DNA of 38,185 nucleotides from a virus. The position numbers and the translations under genes were made by a program. The stretch lies in the IMG/VR virus record IMGVR_UViG_3300032291_001215, positions 1 through 38,185 of that record; one strand, given 5' to 3'. The notes under the pieces were generated by a model. The model did not search any database. It saw only the letters and a list, made by a program, of their open reading frames with translations, and had not been told where the DNA came from. The number at the start of each line of letters is the position of its first letter. Positions within the stretch are counted from its first letter, which is position 1. Shown in pieces: positions 5,482 through 15,637 of the stretch.

Positions 5482-6636
5482 ATGTCATTACGACAAATGT
5501 TCGCTGGGAGTATTGTTAAGCCGGGCTTTAACCCGCTGGCGGCACAGACCACCACTTATACAAATTATTTGTATTCTTGGGGGTATAACGATTTTGGTCA
5601 GCTCGGTTTAAGTAACATTACAAACTACTCATCACCCAAACAAGTTGGATCGTTGTCAAATTGGGCGACGATTGCTAATGTTAAAACTGAGAATGGCAAT
5701 TCTGCTCAGTTTTTAGCAACAAAAACCGATGGTACTTTGTGGGTCTGTGGCAGAAATAATGTTGGACAACTTGGATTGGGTAACATAACTAACTACTCAT
5801 CACCCAAACAAGTTGGTTCTCTTACTAATTGGTTAAGTGTATCAGCAGGAGAATACTCTACTGCGGCAATTAAAACTGATGGCACTCTGTGGTCTTGGGG
5901 AGATAACTTTCAAGGCCAACTTGGTTTGACCAATAGAACAAATTATTCATCGCCCAAACAAGTCGGCTCTTTGTCAAATTGGTCTAAGGTTACATCAGGC
6001 TACTACCATACTGTTGCCGTCAAAACTGATGGGACGCTTTGGTCTTGGGGTTTGAATGATTATGGTCAATTAGGATTGAATATAGCCGTTACCGCTAAAA
6101 GATCATCTCCAACGCAAGTCGGCTCCCTCACGAACTGGCTAAATGTTTCCGCTGGTGGATATTTTACTGTTGCTGTAAAAACAAACGGAACATTATGGAC
6201 GTGGGGACGTAGTAATTTTGGCCAACTTGGTTTAGGTACCACAACTTCTTACTCATCTCCAAGGCAAGTTGGTTCTTTGCTTAATTGGGCAAGTGTTAAC
6301 ACTGGAACATATCATGTTCTTGCAATTAAAACTGACGGCACGTTATGGACTTGGGGATATAACGGCGCTGGCCAACTTGGTTTAAATAACCAAACGGATT
6401 ATTCATCACCTAAACAGGTGGGTGTTTTAACAACTTGGTCGCAAACCTCTGGTTCTGTTTACTCATCTGCTTCTGTCAAAACTGATGGAACTTTATGGGG
6501 TTGGGGACAAAATAATGTTGGCCAATTAGGTTTTGGTAACACAACTTATTATTCATCTCCAAAACAACTTGGCGCATTAACAAATTGGTACAGAGTATCT
6601 TTTACGGCTACTTCTACCTTCGCTTTAGGATACTAA
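5482..6636 (+). CDS. RCC1-repeat seven-bladed propeller protein, pair A first gene
   Basis: A 384-residue protein. After a 35-residue N-terminal segment (VKPGFNPLAAQT) come seven repeats, each with a WSWG-type and a GQLG-type motif (for example LWSWGLNDYGQLGL) and a SSPKQVGSL linker, spaced about 50 residues apart. Seven RCC1 repeats form one complete beta-propeller. In eukaryotes and bacteria RCC1 propellers are binding scaffolds; here, among phage fibre genes, a receptor-binding role is the likeliest. The N-terminal segment is shared with the gene at 9609, so it may be the virion attachment part. The codons are visibly more AT-rich than in neighbouring structural genes, suggesting acquisition from another source. 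Confidence 0.85.
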   Translation: MSLRQMFAGSIVKPGFNPLAAQTTTYTNYLYSWGYNDFGQLGLSNITNYSSPKQVGSLSNWATIANVKTENGNSAQFLATKTDGTLWVCGRNNVGQLGLGNITNYSSPKQVGSLTNWLSVSAGEYSTAAIKTDGTLWSWGDNFQGQLGLTNRTNYSSPKQVGSLSNWSKVTSGYYHTVAVKTDGTLWSWGLNDYGQLGLNIAVTAKRSSPTQVGSLTNWLNVSAGGYFTVAVKTNGTLWTWGRSNFGQLGLGTTTSYSSPRQVGSLLNWASVNTGTYHVLAIKTDGTLWTWGYNGAGQLGLNNQTDYSSPKQVGVLTTWSQTSGSVYSSASVKTDGTLWGWGQNNVGQLGFGNTTYYSSPKQLGALTNWYRVSFTATSTFALGY

Positions 6637-6637
6637 T

Positions 6638-7819
6638 ATGCCAATACTTGTATCAGGCGTTCAATACTCAGGCATCTGGACAATGCAACAGGTGAATGCC
6701 GCTATTGCGGCTGGGACTTGGCCTTTGCCTCCGTATATGTACTCTTGGGGTTTAAACAATACTGGTCAGCTTGGTACTGGAAACATAACAAGTTATTCAT
6801 CTCCAAAACAAGTTGGTTCTTCTGCCAGATGGACAACTGGAGCCTCTGGTGGTTATTGGAATGTTGGAAGAACTTTTGTTGTAGCAATCAAATCCGATAA
6901 TTCGCTTTGGTCTTGGGGCGGTAACACAAAAGGTCAACTTGGTCTTGGAAATAGAACTGATTATTCATCTCCTAAGCAAGTTGGTTCATTGACTACTTGG
7001 TCTTCAGTTTCTGCTGGCGGGGGATATTCAAGTTGTTTTGCCGCCGCAATCAAGTCGGATGGAACATTGTGGGTTTGGGGAGATAACATTGAAGGTCAAT
7101 TAGGTCTTGGCAACAGGACGTCTTATTCCTCACCAAAGCAAGTTGGAGCGTTAACTAATTGGTCAAAAGTTTCTTGCGGTGCTTATTATCAGTACACAGC
7201 CGCCGTCAAAACTGATGGAACATTGTGGTCTTGGGGCTATAACTTCTTTGGTCAACTTGGTCTTGGTAACACAACTTCTTATTCATCTCCAAAGCAGGTT
7301 GGATCTTTAACAAATTGGCTTTCCGTTGCTACTGGGTACGCAACAACTTGGTCAATTAAAACAAACGGAACCTTGTGGTCTTGGGGTTATAACGCCAATG
7401 GAGAGCTTGGTATTGGTAATACAACCGATTACTCCAGTCCAAAACAAATTGGTGCGTTAACTAATTGGCTATCAGTTACTTGTGGATATAACCATGCACT
7501 TGCAATCAAGACGGATGGAACCTTGTGGGCTTGGGGTAGGAACATAGTTGGAAATCTTGGAACTGGAAACATTACCAACTATTCTTCACCAAAACAAATT
7601 GGAGCTTTAACAACATGGTCAAAAACCATGCTGACTGGTAACTATGCTAGTTTTGCCATTAAAACCGACGGTACTTTGTGGTCATGGGGTTTAAATAGCA
7701 ATGGTCAACTTGGACTCAATAATAGAACATATTATTCTTCGCCAAAACAAGTTGGTTCACTAACTACTTGGTATCAAGTATTTTCTGGTAGTGAATCAGC
7801 ATATGCTATAAATCAATAA
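6638..7819 (+). CDS. RCC1-repeat seven-bladed propeller protein, pair A second gene
   Basis: A 393-residue protein beginning one base after the stop of the first RCC1 gene. The N-terminal 35 residues (GVQYSGIW ... AAGTWPLPP) differ from pair A first gene but match the gene at 10736. Seven RCC1 repeats follow, with WG/GQLG pairs such as LWSWGGNTKGQLGL and one variant reading GELG and one GNLG. All seven blades are present, so the propeller should be closed. Like its neighbour it is AT-rich. The likely role is a tail appendage that binds a host surface ligand; the ligand cannot be read from the sequence. Confidence 0.85.
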   Translation: MPILVSGVQYSGIWTMQQVNAAIAAGTWPLPPYMYSWGLNNTGQLGTGNITSYSSPKQVGSSARWTTGASGGYWNVGRTFVVAIKSDNSLWSWGGNTKGQLGLGNRTDYSSPKQVGSLTTWSSVSAGGGYSSCFAAAIKSDGTLWVWGDNIEGQLGLGNRTSYSSPKQVGALTNWSKVSCGAYYQYTAAVKTDGTLWSWGYNFFGQLGLGNTTSYSSPKQVGSLTNWLSVATGYATTWSIKTNGTLWSWGYNANGELGIGNTTDYSSPKQIGALTNWLSVTCGYNHALAIKTDGTLWAWGRNIVGNLGTGNITNYSSPKQIGALTTWSKTMLTGNYASFAIKTDGTLWSWGLNSNGQLGLNNRTYYSSPKQVGSLTTWYQVFSGSESAYAINQ

Positions 7820-7839: not shown

Positions 7840-9612
7840 ATGAACAAAACACTGCACTTCCTCTCTGGCATTCCACGTTCTGGCTCTACAGTCCTTGCGG
7901 CTATCCTGAACCAGAACCCAATGACCCATGTATCTACCACATCTGGGCTTGTCCACGCCCTTGATGGCTTGGCCAATACATGGCACTCAGCAGGTCTTTT
8001 GAATGACAACGACCCCACCAGAGAAAAGCTTGCGCAAACCATGCGCGGGTGCATTGATGCGTTCTATGCCGATACAGACAAGCCTGTCATCATTGACAAG
8101 TCTCGTGGCTGGCCTATTCCCCAGATTATGGGTGCTATGTCACAAGTGATTGGCCGTCCATGCAAGGTGATTGCTACAGTGCGTCCAGTGCCAGACTGCA
8201 TGGCTTCATTTGTCCGTGTGGCAAAGCCTGCCGATCTGGATGAGTTCATGTATTCAGGCCAGTTAGCTGACCACCTGAAAGCCGCTTATTTGTCTTTGGA
8301 AGCTGGCTACCAAGCCATGCCAGAGAACTTCCTGTTTGTTGAATACGACAAGCTGTTGGCTGATCCCCGCGCAGAGCTGGCTCGTATCCATGAGTTCTTG
8401 GAACTGCCTGCATACGACTACGACTTCTCCAACATTGATGGCTCGTCAGTCAAAGAAGACGACGAGAATCTGCACGGCTACGCTGGTATGCACGATGTCA
8501 AACCAGTTTTGGCTAAACAGCACAATGATGTATCAAAAGACTTGCTCAAGCACCACTACAACCAATTCTGCCAGCCAGAGTTCTGGAGTAACGGAAAACG
8601 AACAATGCCTGAGTTGGATGACCTCGATCTTCAGGTCGCCGCAGGCAAGATGGGTGACTTCGCTGAAGGCTGGAGACTGTCTGAGAAACTCCACGCGGAG
8701 CGTCCTAACGACCACCGAGCCGCCTATAACCGCTCATGGTACTTGCTCAAACAGGGTCAGATTGGCGAAGGCTACAAACAGATGGATCGCGGTCGCTACT
8801 GCGGGATCATCGGTGAGCGTCGACCTGATACACCAGCTCCTGAGTGGGACGGCAAGACCAAGGGCACAATCCTCTTATACTGCGACCACGGCTTGGGTGA
8901 TCAGATTCACCAAGTGCGTTATGCCCGTGACCTAGTGGCTCGTGGCAACAAGGTTGTTGTTTGCTGTTCTGGTCAACTGGCGCACTTGTTTGCCGGAATT
9001 GAAGGCGTATCCGCTGTCGTTCAGGTTGGTGCTGAGTTTGGTGTGTACCATGACTTCTGGTGCTACGGCATGACAGCCCCTAACTACCTTGGCTACGAGA
9101 TGTCTGATCTGCGTGGTGATCCATACATCACAAAGCCTACGACCATCAAAGGCCGTAAAAAACGCATCGGCATCCGCTGGCAGGGCAACTCAAAGTTTGA
9201 GGATGACCACAACAAACGATTTCCCTATGAGTTGCTGTTCAACGCCATCAAAGATGCTGACGCGGAATTCATTTCACTACAGCGTGATGAGGGTTCTGAG
9301 GCTTGCCCAATATGGGTAAAACAAGTACCATTAAACACATGGGCAGACACCCAAGCGGCGGTGGCTAGTTGCGATCTGGTGATCTCTTCTTGCACATCAG
9401 TCAGCCATTTGGCGGCGGCTATGGGCGTGGAAACATGGGTGGTGATTCCAGTGATGGGGTACTACTTGTATGCGTTAGACGGCGACAAGACACCTTATTA
9501 CGACACCATGACTTTATTCAGGCAAGAAGTATTTGGCGAGTGGGAAGCTCCGTTTGAGAAGATCAAGGAGCGCCTGAACGCCAATCGTGCCGCACTAAGG
9601 AGCGTAGCGTGA
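7840..9612 (+). CDS. Sulfotransferase-TPR-glycosyltransferase (GT9-like) fusion
   Basis: A 590-residue multidomain enzyme. Residues 1-230 are a PAPS-dependent sulfotransferase: FLSGIPRSGSTVLAAIL at 7-23 is the 5'-phosphosulfate loop and VEYDKLLADPRAEL near 167 fits the family. Residues about 265-330 resemble a TPR (AAYNRSWYLLKQGQIGEGY). Residues about 340-590 look like a GT9-type heptosyltransferase C-terminal half, with YCDHGLGDQIHQVRYA and SSCTSVSHLAAAMGVETWVV, the latter aligning with the ADP-heptose-binding HLAAALG motif of that family. It could transfer sulfate and a sugar to one acceptor. It sits between the two RCC1 pairs, and ADP-heptose genes follow 3 kb downstream. I see no strong ribosome binding site before its ATG. 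The acceptor is unknown. Confidence 0.8.
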   Translation: MNKTLHFLSGIPRSGSTVLAAILNQNPMTHVSTTSGLVHALDGLANTWHSAGLLNDNDPTREKLAQTMRGCIDAFYADTDKPVIIDKSRGWPIPQIMGAMSQVIGRPCKVIATVRPVPDCMASFVRVAKPADLDEFMYSGQLADHLKAAYLSLEAGYQAMPENFLFVEYDKLLADPRAELARIHEFLELPAYDYDFSNIDGSSVKEDDENLHGYAGMHDVKPVLAKQHNDVSKDLLKHHYNQFCQPEFWSNGKRTMPELDDLDLQVAAGKMGDFAEGWRLSEKLHAERPNDHRAAYNRSWYLLKQGQIGEGYKQMDRGRYCGIIGERRPDTPAPEWDGKTKGTILLYCDHGLGDQIHQVRYARDLVARGNKVVVCCSGQLAHLFAGIEGVSAVVQVGAEFGVYHDFWCYGMTAPNYLGYEMSDLRGDPYITKPTTIKGRKKRIGIRWQGNSKFEDDHNKRFPYELLFNAIKDADAEFISLQRDEGSEACPIWVKQVPLNTWADTQAAVASCDLVISSCTSVSHLAAAMGVETWVVIPVMGYYLYALDGDKTPYYDTMTLFRQEVFGEWEAPFEKIKERLNANRAALRSVA

Positions 9613-10733
9613 GCTTTAGATATGCCGCTGGATTCAATAAGCCGGGCTTTAATCCGCTGGCTACGCAAACGCCTACATACTTATACAACTTGTTTAGTTG
9701 GGGTTCAAATAATAGCGGTCAGTTAGGTATTGGTAACACTACTAGATATTCATCTCCAAAGCAAGTAGGGTCATTAACAGATTGGTCTGTTATTAGTTTG
9801 AATTGGGTTACATCAAGTTCAATTAAAACTGATGGAACTTTATGGATATGGGGTAATAATAACTTTGGTCAATTAGGTCAAGGAAATACAACAAATTATT
9901 CATCCCCAAAACAAGTAGGTGCTTTAACTAATTGGAGTACGGTTAGTGCTGGTTACTCTCATACCATAGCTGTTAAGACTGATGGTACATTATGGGGATG
10001 GGGTTGGAATGGTAATGGGCAGTTGGGATTAAATAACAGAACTAACTATTCTTCTCCAGTACAAATTGGCGCATTGACTACTTGGCTAAAAGTTTCTGCC
10101 GCTTATATCTCAACATGCGCTATTAAAACTGACGGTACGCTTTGGTCATGGGGTGGTAATAATCATGGTCAGCTTGGCCTTGGAAATATAACAGCGTATT
10201 CCTCACCAAAACAAGTTGGATCATTGACTAATTGGTCTTCTGTTTATGTTGGAATTATAACTAACTGCGTTATTTCAGTAAAAACAGATGGCACTCTTTG
10301 GTCATGGGGGACTAATCAATCTGGTCAGTTAGGTTTAGGCAATAGGTCATATTATTCATCCCCTAAACAAATTGGCGCATTAACAACTTGGGCATCTGGT
10401 CAAACTGGACTTTCCACAGGTGCCATTAAAACTGATGGTACATTGTGGACTTGGGGATCTAATACAGCGGGCCAACTTGGTCAAGGTAATACAACCAATT
10501 ACTCTTCGCCTAAACAAGTTGGAAGTTTGACAAATTGGCTTAGTATTGCTTGTGGCGCTTATTTCATGACATCTATAAAAACAGATGGAACTCTGTGGAC
10601 TTGGGGTAAAAATGATTATGGCCAACTTGGCTTAAGTAATATAACTAACTACTCCTCACCAATACAAGTTGGATTAACAACTACATGGTTGCGAGTTTCT
10701 GCTGGATATACCGCAGTATTGTCTAGAGGATAA
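9609..10733 (+). CDS. RCC1-repeat seven-bladed propeller protein, pair B first gene
   Basis: A 374-residue protein using GTG in a GTGA overlap with the stop of the fusion enzyme, so the two are translationally coupled. The N-terminal KPGFNPLATQTPTY matches the gene at 5482, including a 23-base stretch with one mismatch at the DNA level. Seven RCC1 repeats follow (for example LWGWGWNGNGQLGL), giving one full propeller. The last repeats differ clearly from those of pair A. It is AT-rich like the other RCC1 genes. A receptor-binding or virion appendage role is inferred from context. Confidence 0.85.
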   Translation: MSFRYAAGFNKPGFNPLATQTPTYLYNLFSWGSNNSGQLGIGNTTRYSSPKQVGSLTDWSVISLNWVTSSSIKTDGTLWIWGNNNFGQLGQGNTTNYSSPKQVGALTNWSTVSAGYSHTIAVKTDGTLWGWGWNGNGQLGLNNRTNYSSPVQIGALTTWLKVSAAYISTCAIKTDGTLWSWGGNNHGQLGLGNITAYSSPKQVGSLTNWSSVYVGIITNCVISVKTDGTLWSWGTNQSGQLGLGNRSYYSSPKQIGALTTWASGQTGLSTGAIKTDGTLWTWGSNTAGQLGQGNTTNYSSPKQVGSLTNWLSIACGAYFMTSIKTDGTLWTWGKNDYGQLGLSNITNYSSPIQVGLTTTWLRVSAGYTAVLSRG

Positions 10734-10735
10734 AT

Positions 10736-11911
10736 ATGGCAACACAACTTATTCAAGGCGTTCAATACTCAGGCATCTGGAACATCAGCAGTCAAGCAAA
10801 TGCTAAGGGGGCGGGAACTTGGCCTATTCCGCCGCAAGCTCGTTTATTTGCTTGGGGTAAGAACACTGGCGGTCAGATGGGTTTTAGCAATACCACAGCT
10901 TATTCATCGCCAAAACAATTAAACGCTACAGCCAATTGGTTAGATGTTGTTTCAGGTTACAACACCATACAGGGAATTAGATCTGATAACAGTTTATGGG
11001 TTTGCGGTATTAATAACTTTGGTGAGCTTGGTTTAAATAATAGAACAGCCTACTCATCTCCTAAGCAAGTTGGCTCTTTGACCGATTGGTCAAAAATTGG
11101 TGGAGCAGGCAATGGCCCTATTGCTGTTAAAACGGATGGAACACTTTGGTCTTGGGGATACAACCTCCGAGGCCAACTTGGGTTAAATAACACAACAAAT
11201 TATTCATCACCAAAACAAGTTGGTGCTTTGACAAATTGGTCATCAATCGGGAAAAGTCTTTACGGTCTATTTTCACTGGCTACAAAAACAGATGGAACCA
11301 TTTGGTCTTGGGGTCAAGGAAGTGATGGAAGATTGGGTCTTGGAAACAGCACCTACTACTCATCGCCAAAACAAATTGGATCGCTTACCAATTGGTCTAA
11401 AGCCGCTGGCGGTAACGCTTTTGCTATTGCACTCAAAACCGATGGCACTTTGTGGTCGTGGGGTATCAATGACCAAGGTCAATTAGGGTTGGGCAATACA
11501 ACCAGATATTCCTCACCAAAACAAGTTGGTTCAAACACAAATTGGCTAGACATTGCCGCCGGATACCAGCATACACTTGCTGTTACAACAGGCGGAACCT
11601 TGTGGGCTTGGGGTAGAAACAATTACGGTCAATTGGGTATAGGTCTTTCAGGGCCCGGAACTTATAAGTCATCACCAACTCAAGTTGGGTCTTTAACTAC
11701 TTGGTTGGCAGTGGCTGGTGGTTTTTACTCTACAGTGGCAGTTAAAACTGATGGCACAATTTGGTCTTGGGGCTATGGCGGCGCTGGTAGCCTTGGCCTT
11801 GGCAACACCACAAACTACTCAAGTCCAAAGCAAATTGGCGCTTTAAATACTTGGGTTCGACCATATAGTTTCTATGAAACAGCCGTTGCGTTTGGCGCGG
11901 TAAACGGTTAA
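10736..11911 (+). CDS. RCC1-repeat seven-bladed propeller protein, pair B second gene
   Basis: A 391-residue protein starting 2 bases after the previous stop. Its N-terminal IQGVQYSGIWNI ... GAGTWPIPP matches the gene at 6638, with a 26-base identical stretch at 10756-10781 against 6655-6680. Seven RCC1-type repeats follow; several are divergent (GQMG, GELG, GRLG, GSLG), making this the most degenerate of the four propellers. The same gene order as in pair A argues for duplication of a two-gene cassette. The function is probably ligand binding at the tail. Confidence 0.85.
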   Translation: MATQLIQGVQYSGIWNISSQANAKGAGTWPIPPQARLFAWGKNTGGQMGFSNTTAYSSPKQLNATANWLDVVSGYNTIQGIRSDNSLWVCGINNFGELGLNNRTAYSSPKQVGSLTDWSKIGGAGNGPIAVKTDGTLWSWGYNLRGQLGLNNTTNYSSPKQVGALTNWSSIGKSLYGLFSLATKTDGTIWSWGQGSDGRLGLGNSTYYSSPKQIGSLTNWSKAAGGNAFAIALKTDGTLWSWGINDQGQLGLGNTTRYSSPKQVGSNTNWLDIAAGYQHTLAVTTGGTLWAWGRNNYGQLGIGLSGPGTYKSSPTQVGSLTTWLAVAGGFYSTVAVKTDGTIWSWGYGGAGSLGLGNTTNYSSPKQIGALNTWVRPYSFYETAVAFGAVNG

Positions 11912-12424: not shown

Positions 12425-13006
12425 ATGAAGATCAACTTAGGTAGTGGCTACAAGCGTATTGACGGGTTTCTCAACATCGATGACGACCCGCTGGTTGAGC
12501 CGGATTTCCTTTGCAACATCGAGCAAGACAAGTTGCCCCTTGAGGACAACTCTGTTGACGAGATCCGTGCCCACCACATCCTCGAGCATATCGGGGAAGG
12601 ATTCATCCCCCTGATGAAAGAATTGCACCGTGTATGCAAGCACGGCGCTTTGCTGGACATCGTGGTTCCGCACCACTTCCACGACAACTTCTACGGCGAT
12701 CCCACCCATAAGCGCCCCATCACTGTGAGCGGGATGCACATGTTCTCCAAGAAACATTGTGAGGAGCACCGTGAAGTGTATGGCTCCAATTCTGGCATGT
12801 CGCTCAAGTATGGAATTGACTTTGACGTAGAGTCGTTTGACTTTGAGTACGACCCCTTCTATCACGGCCTGCTGGACATGATCAAGCAGAAGACCGAGAA
12901 CGGTACATTGACGCATGAAGAGAATCAGATGTTCAGGCGTTTGATGCGGGAAGCGAACAATGTGGCGCTTCATACCTTAATCAAGATGAGGGCGGTGAAA
13001 GAATGA
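12425..13006 (+). CDS. Class I SAM-dependent methyltransferase
   Basis: A 193-residue protein with NLGSGYKRIDGFLNID at residues 4-19, the glycine-rich SAM-binding loop followed by an acidic strand end. The next segments, LPLEDNSVDEIRAHHILEHI and MKELHRVCKHGALLDIVVP, are motifs of the Methyltransf_11-type fold. The C-terminal part is His/Asp/Phe-rich (HHFHDNFYGDPTHKRP) and may shape the substrate site. It is first in the overlapped sugar operon and ends in an ATGA overlap with the APS-kinase-like gene. Methylation of a sugar or fibre glycan is a reasonable guess; the substrate is not readable. Confidence 0.75.
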   Translation: MKINLGSGYKRIDGFLNIDDDPLVEPDFLCNIEQDKLPLEDNSVDEIRAHHILEHIGEGFIPLMKELHRVCKHGALLDIVVPHHFHDNFYGDPTHKRPITVSGMHMFSKKHCEEHREVYGSNSGMSLKYGIDFDVESFDFEYDPFYHGLLDMIKQKTENGTLTHEENQMFRRLMREANNVALHTLIKMRAVKE

Positions 13007-13446
13007 AAATCCTGATCATGGGCTTGCCCGGCGCAGGCAAAACAACCTTGGCTGAAGCTTTGGCCAGACAGCTTCAAGCGGTTCACTTCAACGCAGACGA
13101 GATCCGCCGTGAGATCAACAAAGACCTAGGCTTCAGTATTGCTGACCGCTTGGAGCAAGCTCGTCGCATGGGCGTTCTGTGTGACATTGCCAGTCGTCAT
13201 GGCTCTCATGTGATTGCTGACTTTGTCTGCCCAACACCAGAGGCTCGTGAGGCTTTCAAGCCTGACTTCCTGATCTGGGTTGACCGCATCAAAGAAGGGC
13301 GTTTTGAAGACACAAACAAGCTGTTTGTACCGCCTGAGAAGTACGATGCGCGTATTGAAGGCCCGTGGGGTATGCAGTACTACGCCGAAGAGCTGGCACG
13401 CAGGATCAACCCTCGCCAACCAACATCACTTTACAAAGTCGGATGA
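13003..13446 (+). CDS. Adenylylsulfate (APS) kinase-like P-loop protein
   Basis: A 147-residue P-loop kinase. GLPGAGKTT at residues 7-15 is the Walker A loop. NADEIRREINKDLGFSIADR at about 28-47 aligns with the DGDNVR...LNKDLGFS signature of CysC, the enzyme that phosphorylates APS to PAPS, the sulfate donor of sulfotransferases. The protein is shorter than usual CysC (about 200 residues), and its C-terminal lid (FEDTNKLFVPPEKYDARI) departs from the classical one. The start overlaps the upstream stop (ATGA) and its own stop overlaps the next start. It pairs logically with the sulfotransferase at 7840. Another small-molecule kinase is the alternative. Confidence 0.7.
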   Translation: MKILIMGLPGAGKTTLAEALARQLQAVHFNADEIRREINKDLGFSIADRLEQARRMGVLCDIASRHGSHVIADFVCPTPEAREAFKPDFLIWVDRIKEGRFEDTNKLFVPPEKYDARIEGPWGMQYYAEELARRINPRQPTSLYKVG

Positions 13447-13856
13447 TAGTCTTTACCAACGGTTGCTTCGATGTGCTCCATCGTGGGCACGTTGAGTATC
13501 TTAAAAAGTCCCGCAAGCTCGGGAAAAGACTGATCGTTGGTCTGAATTCGGACGAGTCAGTAAAACGCCTCAAAGGCCCGAATAGACCCATCAATAACGA
13601 AGAAGATCGCAAAGCAGTCTTGCTGGCGCTGAGGTTTGTAGATGAGGTCATCATCTTTGACGAGCCAACGCCGCTTAGGCTGATTCAGGTCTTGAATCCA
13701 GACATCATCACAAAGGGTGGCGACTACAAGCCTGAGCAGGTAGTGGGTTACACCTTTGTCAAACAGACAGTCATTATTCCGTTCTTAGACGGCTATTCAT
13801 CAACAAGGATTATCAATGAGACTATCGGGGATTGTGGAAAAGGGTTGGGGCTCTGA
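13443..13856 (+). CDS. rfaE2: D-glycero-beta-D-manno-heptose 1-phosphate adenylyltransferase
   Basis: A 137-residue nucleotidyltransferase corresponding to the C-terminal domain of HldE/RfaE. It makes ADP-heptose from heptose 1-phosphate and ATP. TNGCFDVLHRGHVEYL at residues 5-20 holds the HxGH catalytic motif (13-16). GLNSDESVKRLKG, NPDIITKGGDYKPEQVVG and the ending DGYSSTRIINETI follow the family closely. I chose the ATG at 13443, in an ATGA overlap with the preceding stop, because the family starts right at this strand; in-frame codons further upstream lie inside the kinase gene. The kinase half is encoded separately at 14166, with a cupin gene between them. Confidence 0.9.
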   Translation: MIVFTNGCFDVLHRGHVEYLKKSRKLGKRLIVGLNSDESVKRLKGPNRPINNEEDRKAVLLALRFVDEVIIFDEPTPLRLIQVLNPDIITKGGDYKPEQVVGYTFVKQTVIIPFLDGYSSTRIINETIGDCGKGLGL

Positions 13857-14169
13857 GTTAATCTGGGCTACCAACGATAAATACTGCGGCAAGCTGATGA
13901 CCTTCAACGAAGGCGCTAAGTTCTCCATGCATTTTCATGCCGTAAAAGACGAGACTTGGCTAGTCCAAAGTGGGCTGTTCAAAGTGATCTACATTGGCAC
14001 GCAAGATGCGCAACGATACGAAAAAATCCTCAAGGTGGGAGATACTTGGAGAAACAAGCCGCTTGAGCCTCACCAGCTCATTTGCCTTGAAGCAGGTGTG
14101 ATCTTGGAAGTCTCAACTGCTGACTCGGTGGAGGACAACTACCGCATCGAGCCGGGGGACAGCCAATGA
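13816..14169 (+). CDS. Cupin-domain protein, sugar isomerase/epimerase type
   Basis: A 117-residue single-domain cupin. Residues 7-30 (VEKGWGSELIWATNDKYCGK) resemble the opening of mannose-6-phosphate isomerase-type cupins. FNEGAKFSMHFHAVKDETWLV at about 30-50 is cupin motif 1, with metal-ligand candidates H39, H41 and E46. EPHQLICLEAG at about 92-102 is motif 2, with H94. It overlaps the adenylyltransferase by 41 bases, and its TGA overlaps the next ATG. Placed inside a heptose operon it may isomerise or epimerise a sugar phosphate or nucleotide sugar, or be a regulator. The substrate is unknown. Confidence 0.75.
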   Translation: MRLSGIVEKGWGSELIWATNDKYCGKLMTFNEGAKFSMHFHAVKDETWLVQSGLFKVIYIGTQDAQRYEKILKVGDTWRNKPLEPHQLICLEAGVILEVSTADSVEDNYRIEPGDSQ

Positions 14170-14879
14170 AGATCTTAGTCATTGGTGATGGGTGCATAGA
14201 CGAATACCGCTACGGATACATAACCCGCGTCAATCCAGAGTCTGCCGCACCTTTATTGAGCTTCGAGGACAGCGAGGAGAAGATGGGCATGGCGTTCAAC
14301 GTAGCCCAGAACCTGCAAGCATTTGGTGCAGATGTCACTTTGTGCGTTAGTGAAGAGCTATCCCGCAAAATCCGCTATATCAACCGCCGGACAGGTGAAC
14401 ATCTTCTTCGGGTAGATATGGACGAGGAGTCCCTGCCATACGACTTCAGTGTGCCCTTGAAAGACTTCGATGCCATCGTGATCTCGGACTACAACAAAGG
14501 CTTTGTTTGGGATCAGACCATTCAAGAGCTTAGGCAACAGTTTGCTGGCCCGATCTACATGGACACCAAAAAGAAGAACCTAGCGGACTTCCCCGGCGTG
14601 TACATAAAAATCAACCAACGTGAGCTGTACGAGGCCACATCCATTCCCGAGCAGGACAAGCTGATCGTCACCTACGGCTCCAAAGGCTGTGGCTACAAAG
14701 ACAAGATGTATCCTGCCAAGCCTATCGAGGTGGTGGATGTATGCGGTGCAGGTGACGTGTTCTTGGCCGCTATGGTGGTCAAGCACTTAGAAACTGGCGA
14801 CATGGGCATAGCTTTGCCGTTTGCCAATGAGAAAGCGGCAATCTCTTGCCAGAGTCTGGGGGCTGTATGCGTATCCTGA
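14166..14879 (+). CDS. rfaE1: D-glycero-beta-D-manno-heptose-7-phosphate kinase, shortened
   Basis: A 237-residue PfkB-family kinase corresponding to the N-terminal half of HldE, which phosphorylates heptose 7-phosphate at C1. Family marks are ILVIGDGCIDEYRYG at 3-17, TRVNPESAAPLLSFED at about 20-35, GMAFNVAQNLQAFGADVTL (GGAANVA in standard enzymes), VISDYNKGF, DTKKKNLADFPG and DVCGAGDVFLAAMV, where GAGD at 194-197 holds the catalytic Asp. It is about 80 residues shorter than usual, with the loss mostly in the middle (the region after residue 60), so activity should be tested. It overlaps hldD by 13 bases. Confidence 0.85.
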   Translation: MKILVIGDGCIDEYRYGYITRVNPESAAPLLSFEDSEEKMGMAFNVAQNLQAFGADVTLCVSEELSRKIRYINRRTGEHLLRVDMDEESLPYDFSVPLKDFDAIVISDYNKGFVWDQTIQELRQQFAGPIYMDTKKKNLADFPGVYIKINQRELYEATSIPEQDKLIVTYGSKGCGYKDKMYPAKPIEVVDVCGAGDVFLAAMVVKHLETGDMGIALPFANEKAAISCQSLGAVCVS

Positions 14880-15637
14880 TCACTGGCCACAAAGGCTTCA
14901 TTGGCCAAAACATGGTCAAGGCTCTGTCAGATCATGAGCTAGACCTATGTGAGTGGGGCGATGAGTATTCCCTCTATGGAATAGACCGCGTCATTCACCT
15001 CGGAGCGATCTCCGACACCCGCTGTGACGACTGGATAGCCCTTCGTAAGCAAAACGTGGGTTTCACCATCACCCTGATGGAGCGTTGCCAGAAGTACGGC
15101 ATTCCGATCCAGATTGCCTCCTCCGCATCGGTTTATGGCCCCCACAACACGACTTTTCGGGAGACTGACCCTGTAGCGCCAGCCAATCTCTACGCCGAGT
15201 CTAAGGCGATTGTGGAGGCTTACTTCCACACTATGCGCCCAATTTCACCAGTTCAAATCTTTCGCTACTTCAATGTGTATGGCCCCCACGAGGATCACAA
15301 GGGTGATCAGGCTTCCCCGTTCCACAAGTTTAGAGAGCAAGCCAAGACTGGCGTGATTAAGATTTTTGAGGGAAGTGACCAGTTTCAGAGGGACTTTATC
15401 CACGTAGACGAGGTGATTAACGTGCACAAACGGTTCTTCAAAGTGGCCGAGTCCGGCATCTGGAACGTGGGCACTGGAAAAACAATGTCATTTGCCGATG
15501 TCGCCCTCTTGGCAAGCACTGAAATACCAGCGAAAATACAGACCATTCCGATGCCCAAAGACCTAAAGTCTGGGTATCAAAAATTTACCCAAGCCGATTT
15601 AACCAAAATCAAGGCGACCCTAAAAAATGAGCGTTGA
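14867..15637 (+). CDS. hldD: ADP-L-glycero-D-manno-heptose 6-epimerase
   Basis: A 256-residue short-chain dehydrogenase/epimerase. It converts ADP-D-glycero- to ADP-L-glycero-D-manno-heptose with bound NADP. ILITGHKGFIGQN at residues 3-15 is the Rossmann loop. ASSASVYGPH is followed by YAESKA, with the catalytic Tyr and Lys. RYFNVYGPHEDHKGDQASPF and FEGSDQFQRDFIHVDEV are HldD-specific stretches, followed by WNVGTG. It is about 50 residues shorter than the E. coli enzyme. I used the ATG at 14867, directly before the Rossmann strand and behind a G-rich ribosome binding site; an upstream TTG at 14846 would add seven unrelated residues. It overlaps the genes on both sides. Confidence 0.9.
   Translation: MRILITGHKGFIGQNMVKALSDHELDLCEWGDEYSLYGIDRVIHLGAISDTRCDDWIALRKQNVGFTITLMERCQKYGIPIQIASSASVYGPHNTTFRETDPVAPANLYAESKAIVEAYFHTMRPISPVQIFRYFNVYGPHEDHKGDQASPFHKFREQAKTGVIKIFEGSDQFQRDFIHVDEVINVHKRFFKVAESGIWNVGTGKTMSFADVALLASTEIPAKIQTIPMPKDLKSGYQKFTQADLTKIKATLKNER

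Follow-up and report, generated by a model that had tools for sequence, protein, structure and literature searches.

A cupin as candidate sedoheptulose-7-phosphate isomerase in a phage cassette of heptose-family enzymes

In the classical bacterial route to ADP-heptose, sedoheptulose 7-phosphate is isomerised by GmhA and passes through a kinase (RfaE1/HldA), the phosphatase GmhB, an adenylyltransferase (RfaE2/HldE-C) and the 6-epimerase HldD. Such genes have also been described in phages: rfaE of pelagimyophages was read as a lipopolysaccharide (LPS)-type gene (PMC7029224), gmhA was used as a phage marker gene in a marine virome paper (PMC9238414), and cyanomyoviruses carry a cassette of heptose-family genes (T4-GC 304-308), while cyanobacterial LPS has been reported to be without heptose (PMC4390846). 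Here we analysed a 38,185-base virus record of a freshwater phage (IMG/VR record IMGVR_UViG_3300032291_001215; hereafter the window), in which six overlapping genes, with stops running into starts and all on the + strand, occupy positions 12425-15637. An earlier note on this DNA had described them as one overlapped operon encoding a kinase, an adenylyltransferase, an epimerase, a cupin, a methyltransferase and an APS-kinase-like protein in the late region of a phage; gene calls and family matches confirm this description, the gene names hold, and tail, lysis and RCC1-repeat genes surround the operon. What is new here is the cupin and not the cassette itself: we make the testable prediction that phage heptose cassettes contain an isomerase unrelated to GmhA.

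Heptose-family enzymes and the place of the cupin

The kinase, adenylyltransferase and epimerase match heptose families with E-values of 1e-33 to 1e-60, which rule out chance. NCBIfam sets equivalog cut-offs of 181.5 bits for TIGR02199, 345 bits for TIGR02198 and 274.6 bits for TIGR02197. The adenylyltransferase scores 176.4 bits with TIGR02199, 5 bits under the cut-off, against 54 bits for glycerol-3-phosphate cytidylyltransferase; this best family match, with the LHRGH motif as the nucleotidyltransferase HxGH, places it in RfaE2. The epimerase scores 204.5 bits with TIGR02197, also below the cut-off, against 75 bits for GalE. It matches Escherichia coli HldD (1eq2) at E=2e-42 and retains, as that protein does, the YxxxK motif (YAESK) and the FRYFNVYGPHEDHKG stretch, so that best family match, YxxxK and the FRYFNVYGP..HKG stretch of HldD agree on its membership. 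The kinase reaches 114.9 bits with TIGR02198 and is not assigned to RfaE1 by score, because the protein is about 80 residues shorter than the 315-position model. Aligned with Salmonella HldE, the phage kinases show two deleted blocks, one following G-M-A-x-N and one preceding the motifs on the ATP side, and they retain DxxxDxY, SDYxKG, D-x-K (DTK), N..E (KIN..E) and GAGD, the motifs expected of the family. The earlier note had named lost catalytic residues, or placement in a non-heptose branch, as what would overturn its assignment. Since the heptose families are best by a wide margin and the motifs are retained, neither is seen in alignments and family scores, and the heptose reading of the three enzymes holds as a prediction from sequence.

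The whole window yielded neither GmhA nor a GmhB/HAD gene, as the earlier note had stated. Its further suggestion that GmhA comes from the host is probably wrong: where GmhA is absent, the constant partner is the cupin, which the note had treated as a bystander. Kinase and adenylyltransferase occur together in 171 viral loci, some from contigs that appear in more than one scan. Of cupin and GmhA, 142 loci have only the former and 16 only the latter, and none has both; most of the 13 loci with neither gene are truncated near the cassette. In the kinase and adenylyltransferase scans, which covered 4 kb either side and used neither isomerase as query, the cupin occurs in 58 of 59 untruncated loci and GmhA in 0 of 59, and all 11 loci from the GmhA scan are without the cupin. 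We also considered that the phage might encode GmhA away from the operon, and whole-record searches found none: SIS-family GmhA (PF13580) has no match in the window and 14 further records, and a SIS-family gene is absent from 33 of 34 further whole records, several longer than 140 kb. The exception, L292, has GmhA and no cupin.

This exclusion could partly reflect two cassette lineages, a point against replacement, and for that reason it matters that the kinase tree, at its starred branches, forces at least two changes of isomerase type. L292 lies within the compact-kinase clade and retains the mini-HAD, with GmhA where the cupin would be, and in L056 and L157 the cupin occurs on the canonical HldE side of the tree. 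L056 combines a fused HldE, HldD, the cupin and a canonical GmhB (134 bits); the GmhA of its metagenome-assembled genome (MAG) sits on other contigs. Four of 201 genomes of one bacterial family have the adenylyltransferase, one with the cupin and without GmhA and three with GmhA and without the cupin. In the host family of the cyanophages, GmhA was undetected in 74 of 101 genomes, whose completeness is unknown.

The structure model of the cupin (pLDDT 94) is matched over its whole length by phosphomannose isomerase 7zvy, with TM-scores of 0.76/0.81. Of the 23 cupins compared, every one has a Pfam match to the D-lyxose isomerase family at E <= 0.1, and 13 also match the C-terminal family of phosphomannose isomerase at that threshold; both are families of aldose-ketose isomerases. 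Residues K9, W11-G12, E14, S37, H39, H41, K44, E46, H86, E98 and S100-T101 are invariant in 23 relatives. The phage cupin thus shares with the cupin phosphomannose and D-lyxose isomerases the fold and a metal-type HxH...E...H set, and differs from them in having only ~16-20% identity in structural alignments and in matching other cupin families too. The name 'cysteine dioxygenase' attached to phrog_7851 was ruled out: Glu46 is invariant beside H39, H41 and H86, and cysteine dioxygenases have a three-histidine metal site without the cupin glutamate. Our literature search returned no relevant paper linking a cupin with GmhA or with sedoheptulose-7-phosphate isomerase. Because the cupin is the constant partner, GmhA is absent and the isomerase type switches, we propose that the cupin replaces GmhA as a non-homologous sedoheptulose-7-phosphate isomerase, a function predicted from co-occurrence, exclusion and fold and to which we give about an even chance.

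A predicted route to ADP-heptose and its possible acceptors

In the proposed pathway, the cupin would isomerise host sedoheptulose 7-phosphate to D-glycero-D-manno-heptose 7-phosphate, by analogy the C7 counterpart of the conversion of fructose 6-phosphate to mannose 6-phosphate by phosphomannose isomerase. The compact kinase, judged by family and motifs, would make the 1,7-bisphosphate, and a phosphatase would remove the 7-phosphate, this being the HAD protein or GmhB in relatives and presumably a host enzyme for the window phage. From their families, the RfaE2-like enzyme would adenylylate C1 and the HldD-like enzyme would epimerise C6. Transfer of the sugar, to a virion protein or a surface glycan, would probably fall to a domain of heptosyltransferase fold, which here is joined to a sulfotransferase. 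That the cassette is an ADP-heptose route of this kind, with the cupin in the GmhA role and transfer by the heptosyltransferase-fold domain, we consider somewhat probable. A wider claim falls just short of an even chance: that in many phages and some bacteria the cupin is a hitherto undescribed, non-homologous isomerase which, with HAD/GmhB in many relatives, gives GmhA-independent and largely host-independent ADP-heptose to heptosyltransferase-fold enzymes that glycosylate virions or surface glycans. GmhA probably need not come from the host. If the cupin does take the GmhA step, the classical pathway gains a second, unrelated entry enzyme, phage heptose modules become independent of host LPS genes, and heptose modules in cyanophages, whose hosts reportedly are without LPS heptose, would become understandable.

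A naming error in PHROGs and phage records concerns the phosphatase step. The cyanophage 'phosphoheptose isomerase' (for example P-SSM2_311, L043:12719-13063, and its homologues) was ruled out as GmhA, as its DxDGT motif and its match to the capsule phosphatase family TIGR01689 mark it as a HAD protein. Its family, phrog_1238, bears the GmhA name and also matches true GmhB weakly; true phage GmhA belongs to phrog_14703, listed as 'unknown function'. Since the misnamed gene is a HAD phosphatase, cyanophages have a GmhB candidate, predicted from sequence, and no GmhA. The error may have spread to the use of gmhA as a marker (PMC9238414). GmhB, which on the earlier note's view would have to come from the host, is missing from the window, but relatives encode a HAD phosphatase or a canonical GmhB.

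The protein encoded at 7840-9612, upstream of the operon, is a candidate transferase for the activated heptose. Its residues 1-194 match PF13469/PF00685. The C-terminal domain scores 11.4 bits with PF01075, whose cut-off is 22 bits, so that Pfam does not assign it to GT9. AlphaFold2 modelled this domain with moderate confidence (mean pLDDT 70.7), and the best Foldseek matches of the model are OGT, TibC, WaaF (1psw) and WaaC (E 3e-5 to 1e-4, TM ~0.4-0.5). The ADP-heptosyltransferases TibC and WaaC/WaaF, of GT9 fold, are hence among the best-scoring matches; the phage domain differs from them in its fusion to TPR and sulfotransferase and in having cysteine for an aspartate of the C-terminal motif. 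Its GxGD motif does not vary among 16 relatives, and 89 of the 171 cassette loci have nearby a member of four GT9-like gene groups (our own grouping, some members being weakly GT9). These models suggest that the phage may make ADP-heptose and attach it to the virion or a surface glycan. Virion glycosylation, which the earlier note had raised, remains plausible, with an ADP-heptosyltransferase-fold domain just upstream; the acceptor is only speculative, and the RCC1-repeat proteins, possible virion proteins, are one such speculation.

Table 1. Features of the operon and its upstream region in the window
Feature	Position	Strand	Matches and remarks
S-adenosylmethionine (SAM) methyltransferase	12425-13006	+	PF08241 E=5e-5, phrog_6636; variable neighbour of cassette
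APS-kinase-like P-loop kinase	13003-13446	+	PF01583 E=1e-15, phrog_10255
RfaE2/HldE-C, D-glycero-beta-D-manno-heptose 1-phosphate adenylyltransferase	13443-13856	+	TIGR02199; nearest solved relative 5x9q; NGCFDxLHxGH motif retained
Cupin (phrog_7851), proposed sedoheptulose-7-phosphate isomerase in place of GmhA	13816-14169	+	
Compact RfaE1/HldA-type kinase, PfkB family, 237 aa	14166-14879	+	TIGR02198 in three stretches; phrog_8133 258 bits
HldD-type ADP-heptose 6-epimerase, 256 aa	14867-15637	+	TIGR02197; N-terminal Rossmann half shortened
Sulfotransferase (N-terminal) - TPR - GT9-like heptosyltransferase-fold domain (C-terminal, from ~8860)	7840-9612	+	
RCC1-repeat protein	9609-10733	+	phrog_4219/7220, regulator of chromosome condensation; possible virion protein
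RCC1-repeat protein	10736-11911	+	phrog_4219/7220, regulator of chromosome condensation; possible virion protein

Two more RCC1-repeat proteins are encoded at 5482-7819. The four together, which have YSSPKQ-type repeats, lie on both sides of the sulfotransferase-GT9 gene, and relatives have related repeat genes at the same place. The nearest matches of the window's tail gene are in a Manatee Spring virus and in Caulobacter phages (~62 kb). Within the operon, the methyltransferase is missing or replaced in many relatives. The APS-kinase-like gene is in many relatives a 261-aa form with a C-terminal nicotinamide mononucleotide (NMN)-adenylyltransferase-like HxGH domain (fusions at L025:4213-4998 and L030:4499-5284), and this fused form may have to do with the sulfotransferase or with a different nucleotide-activated group.

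Weighing the alternatives

Several observations count against the proposed route. An isomerase role could not be derived from cupin homology alone, as the sequence is equally near to oxalate decarboxylases and quercetinases, and many cupin folds match the model. Cupins unaccompanied by heptose genes are also seen, in 14 of 80 loci, many on short contigs, and in L059, L060 and L078. Cupin and GmhA share a contig in L077, L252 and L262; there GmhA lies in an HddA module, with an HddA-type kinase adjoining. L194 (kinase at 7255, adenylyltransferase at 7953, HAD at 8377) is a compact cassette with complete flanks and neither cupin nor GmhA, and its whole 80.8-kb record contains no SIS gene. No phosphatase or HAD was found in the window phage, nor in the retrieved sequence of three of its long relatives, G001, G002 and G005; another long relative, G003, carries a HAD. 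For the transfer step, the GT9-like model is of moderate quality, with a TM-score of ~0.5, and the residue that is cysteine in this domain is the aspartate of the C-terminal motif DTGxxH in WaaC.

A three-step module completed by host GmhA and GmhB, with the cupin doing otherwise (for example, as a sugar ketoisomerase/epimerase or a regulator), strikes us as rather unlikely. It agrees with the absence of both genes from the window, with cupin homology that does not pick out isomerases and with the existence of solitary cupins, one of them next to a DegT aminotransferase (L078), yet it leaves unexplained why the cupin is near-constant, why it never accompanies GmhA in loci with kinase and adenylyltransferase, and why the two are swapped in L292. 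Moreover, most genomes of the family that hosts the cyanophages gave no GmhA match, and cyanobacterial LPS is reported to be heptose-free (PMC4390846). Quite improbable, in our estimate, is a different activated sugar made by heptose-family enzymes recruited to another substrate. All three enzymes fall under their equivalog cut-offs, the kinase and epimerase have deletions, and some cassettes lie beside thiamine pyrophosphate (TPP)-dependent and alcohol dehydrogenases (P-TIM68, L063); against this, the heptose families are widely ahead (176 versus 54 bits for the adenylyltransferase, 204 versus 75 bits for the epimerase), and the three enzymes occur together, in L056 with the canonical GmhB.

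A further alternative concerns the use of the sugar and not its synthesis: the product might alter the LPS or surface of the host, in superinfection exclusion or receptor change, and not the virion. This is the usual reading of phage LPS-type genes, rfaE of pelagimyophages included (PMC7029224), and we regard it as unlikely while giving it appreciable weight; it sits poorly with the late-region site beside tail genes, with an adjacent transferase fused to a sulfotransferase, and with the same cassette in cyanophages, whose hosts are reported without LPS heptose (PMC4390846).

Distribution and relation to known cassettes

The earlier note had thought the gene set unusual; its recurrence in named phages and environmental viral contigs shows that it is neither unique nor rare. 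The kinase is present in 35 records of named phages, mostly cyanophages. In P-SSM2 and S-CAM1/3 the genes for adenylyltransferase, kinase, HAD, cupin and epimerase form one group that adjoins a tail-fibre gene, and the cassette is also found in cyanomyovirus P-TIM68 and many IMG/VR contigs, the operon recurring in dozens of contigs. Scans of viral contigs gave 40 stretches encoding relatives of the kinase, at least 589 for the cupin and at least 592 for the adenylyltransferase, not every one of the latter two being necessarily in a cassette. The P-TIM68 'transketolase', from a cassette with TPP-dependent and alcohol dehydrogenases nearby, was not used as a source of sedoheptulose 7-phosphate, as Pfam ranks E1 dehydrogenases first. 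In two cellular contigs, L063 and L076, the cassette is accompanied by a GT9-like gene, and GmhA is not among its neighbours; the L063 genome gave no GmhA match, and its label as a Bifidobacterium breve MAG seems questionable. The cassette, complete or in part, is also present in the MAG contigs L056/L057 (335 kb and 153 kb; Neomarinimicrobiota MAG), L058, L083 and L085, which look like phage contigs, so that their binning in bacterial or archaeal MAGs is doubtful.

The phage kinase, adenylyltransferase and epimerase fall into the families of the bacterial pathway and retain their motifs. The differences are the small size of the kinase and epimerase, the encoding of kinase and adenylyltransferase by separate genes, and, in the window, a cupin instead of GmhA and the absence of GmhB. 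The cyanomyovirus cassette of P-SSM2, S-CAM1, S-CAM3 and P-TIM68 has the same kinds of genes as the window. The cyanophages add the mini-HAD phosphatase annotated as phosphoheptose isomerase, which the window is without, whereas the window has the sulfotransferase-TPR-GT9-like protein upstream.

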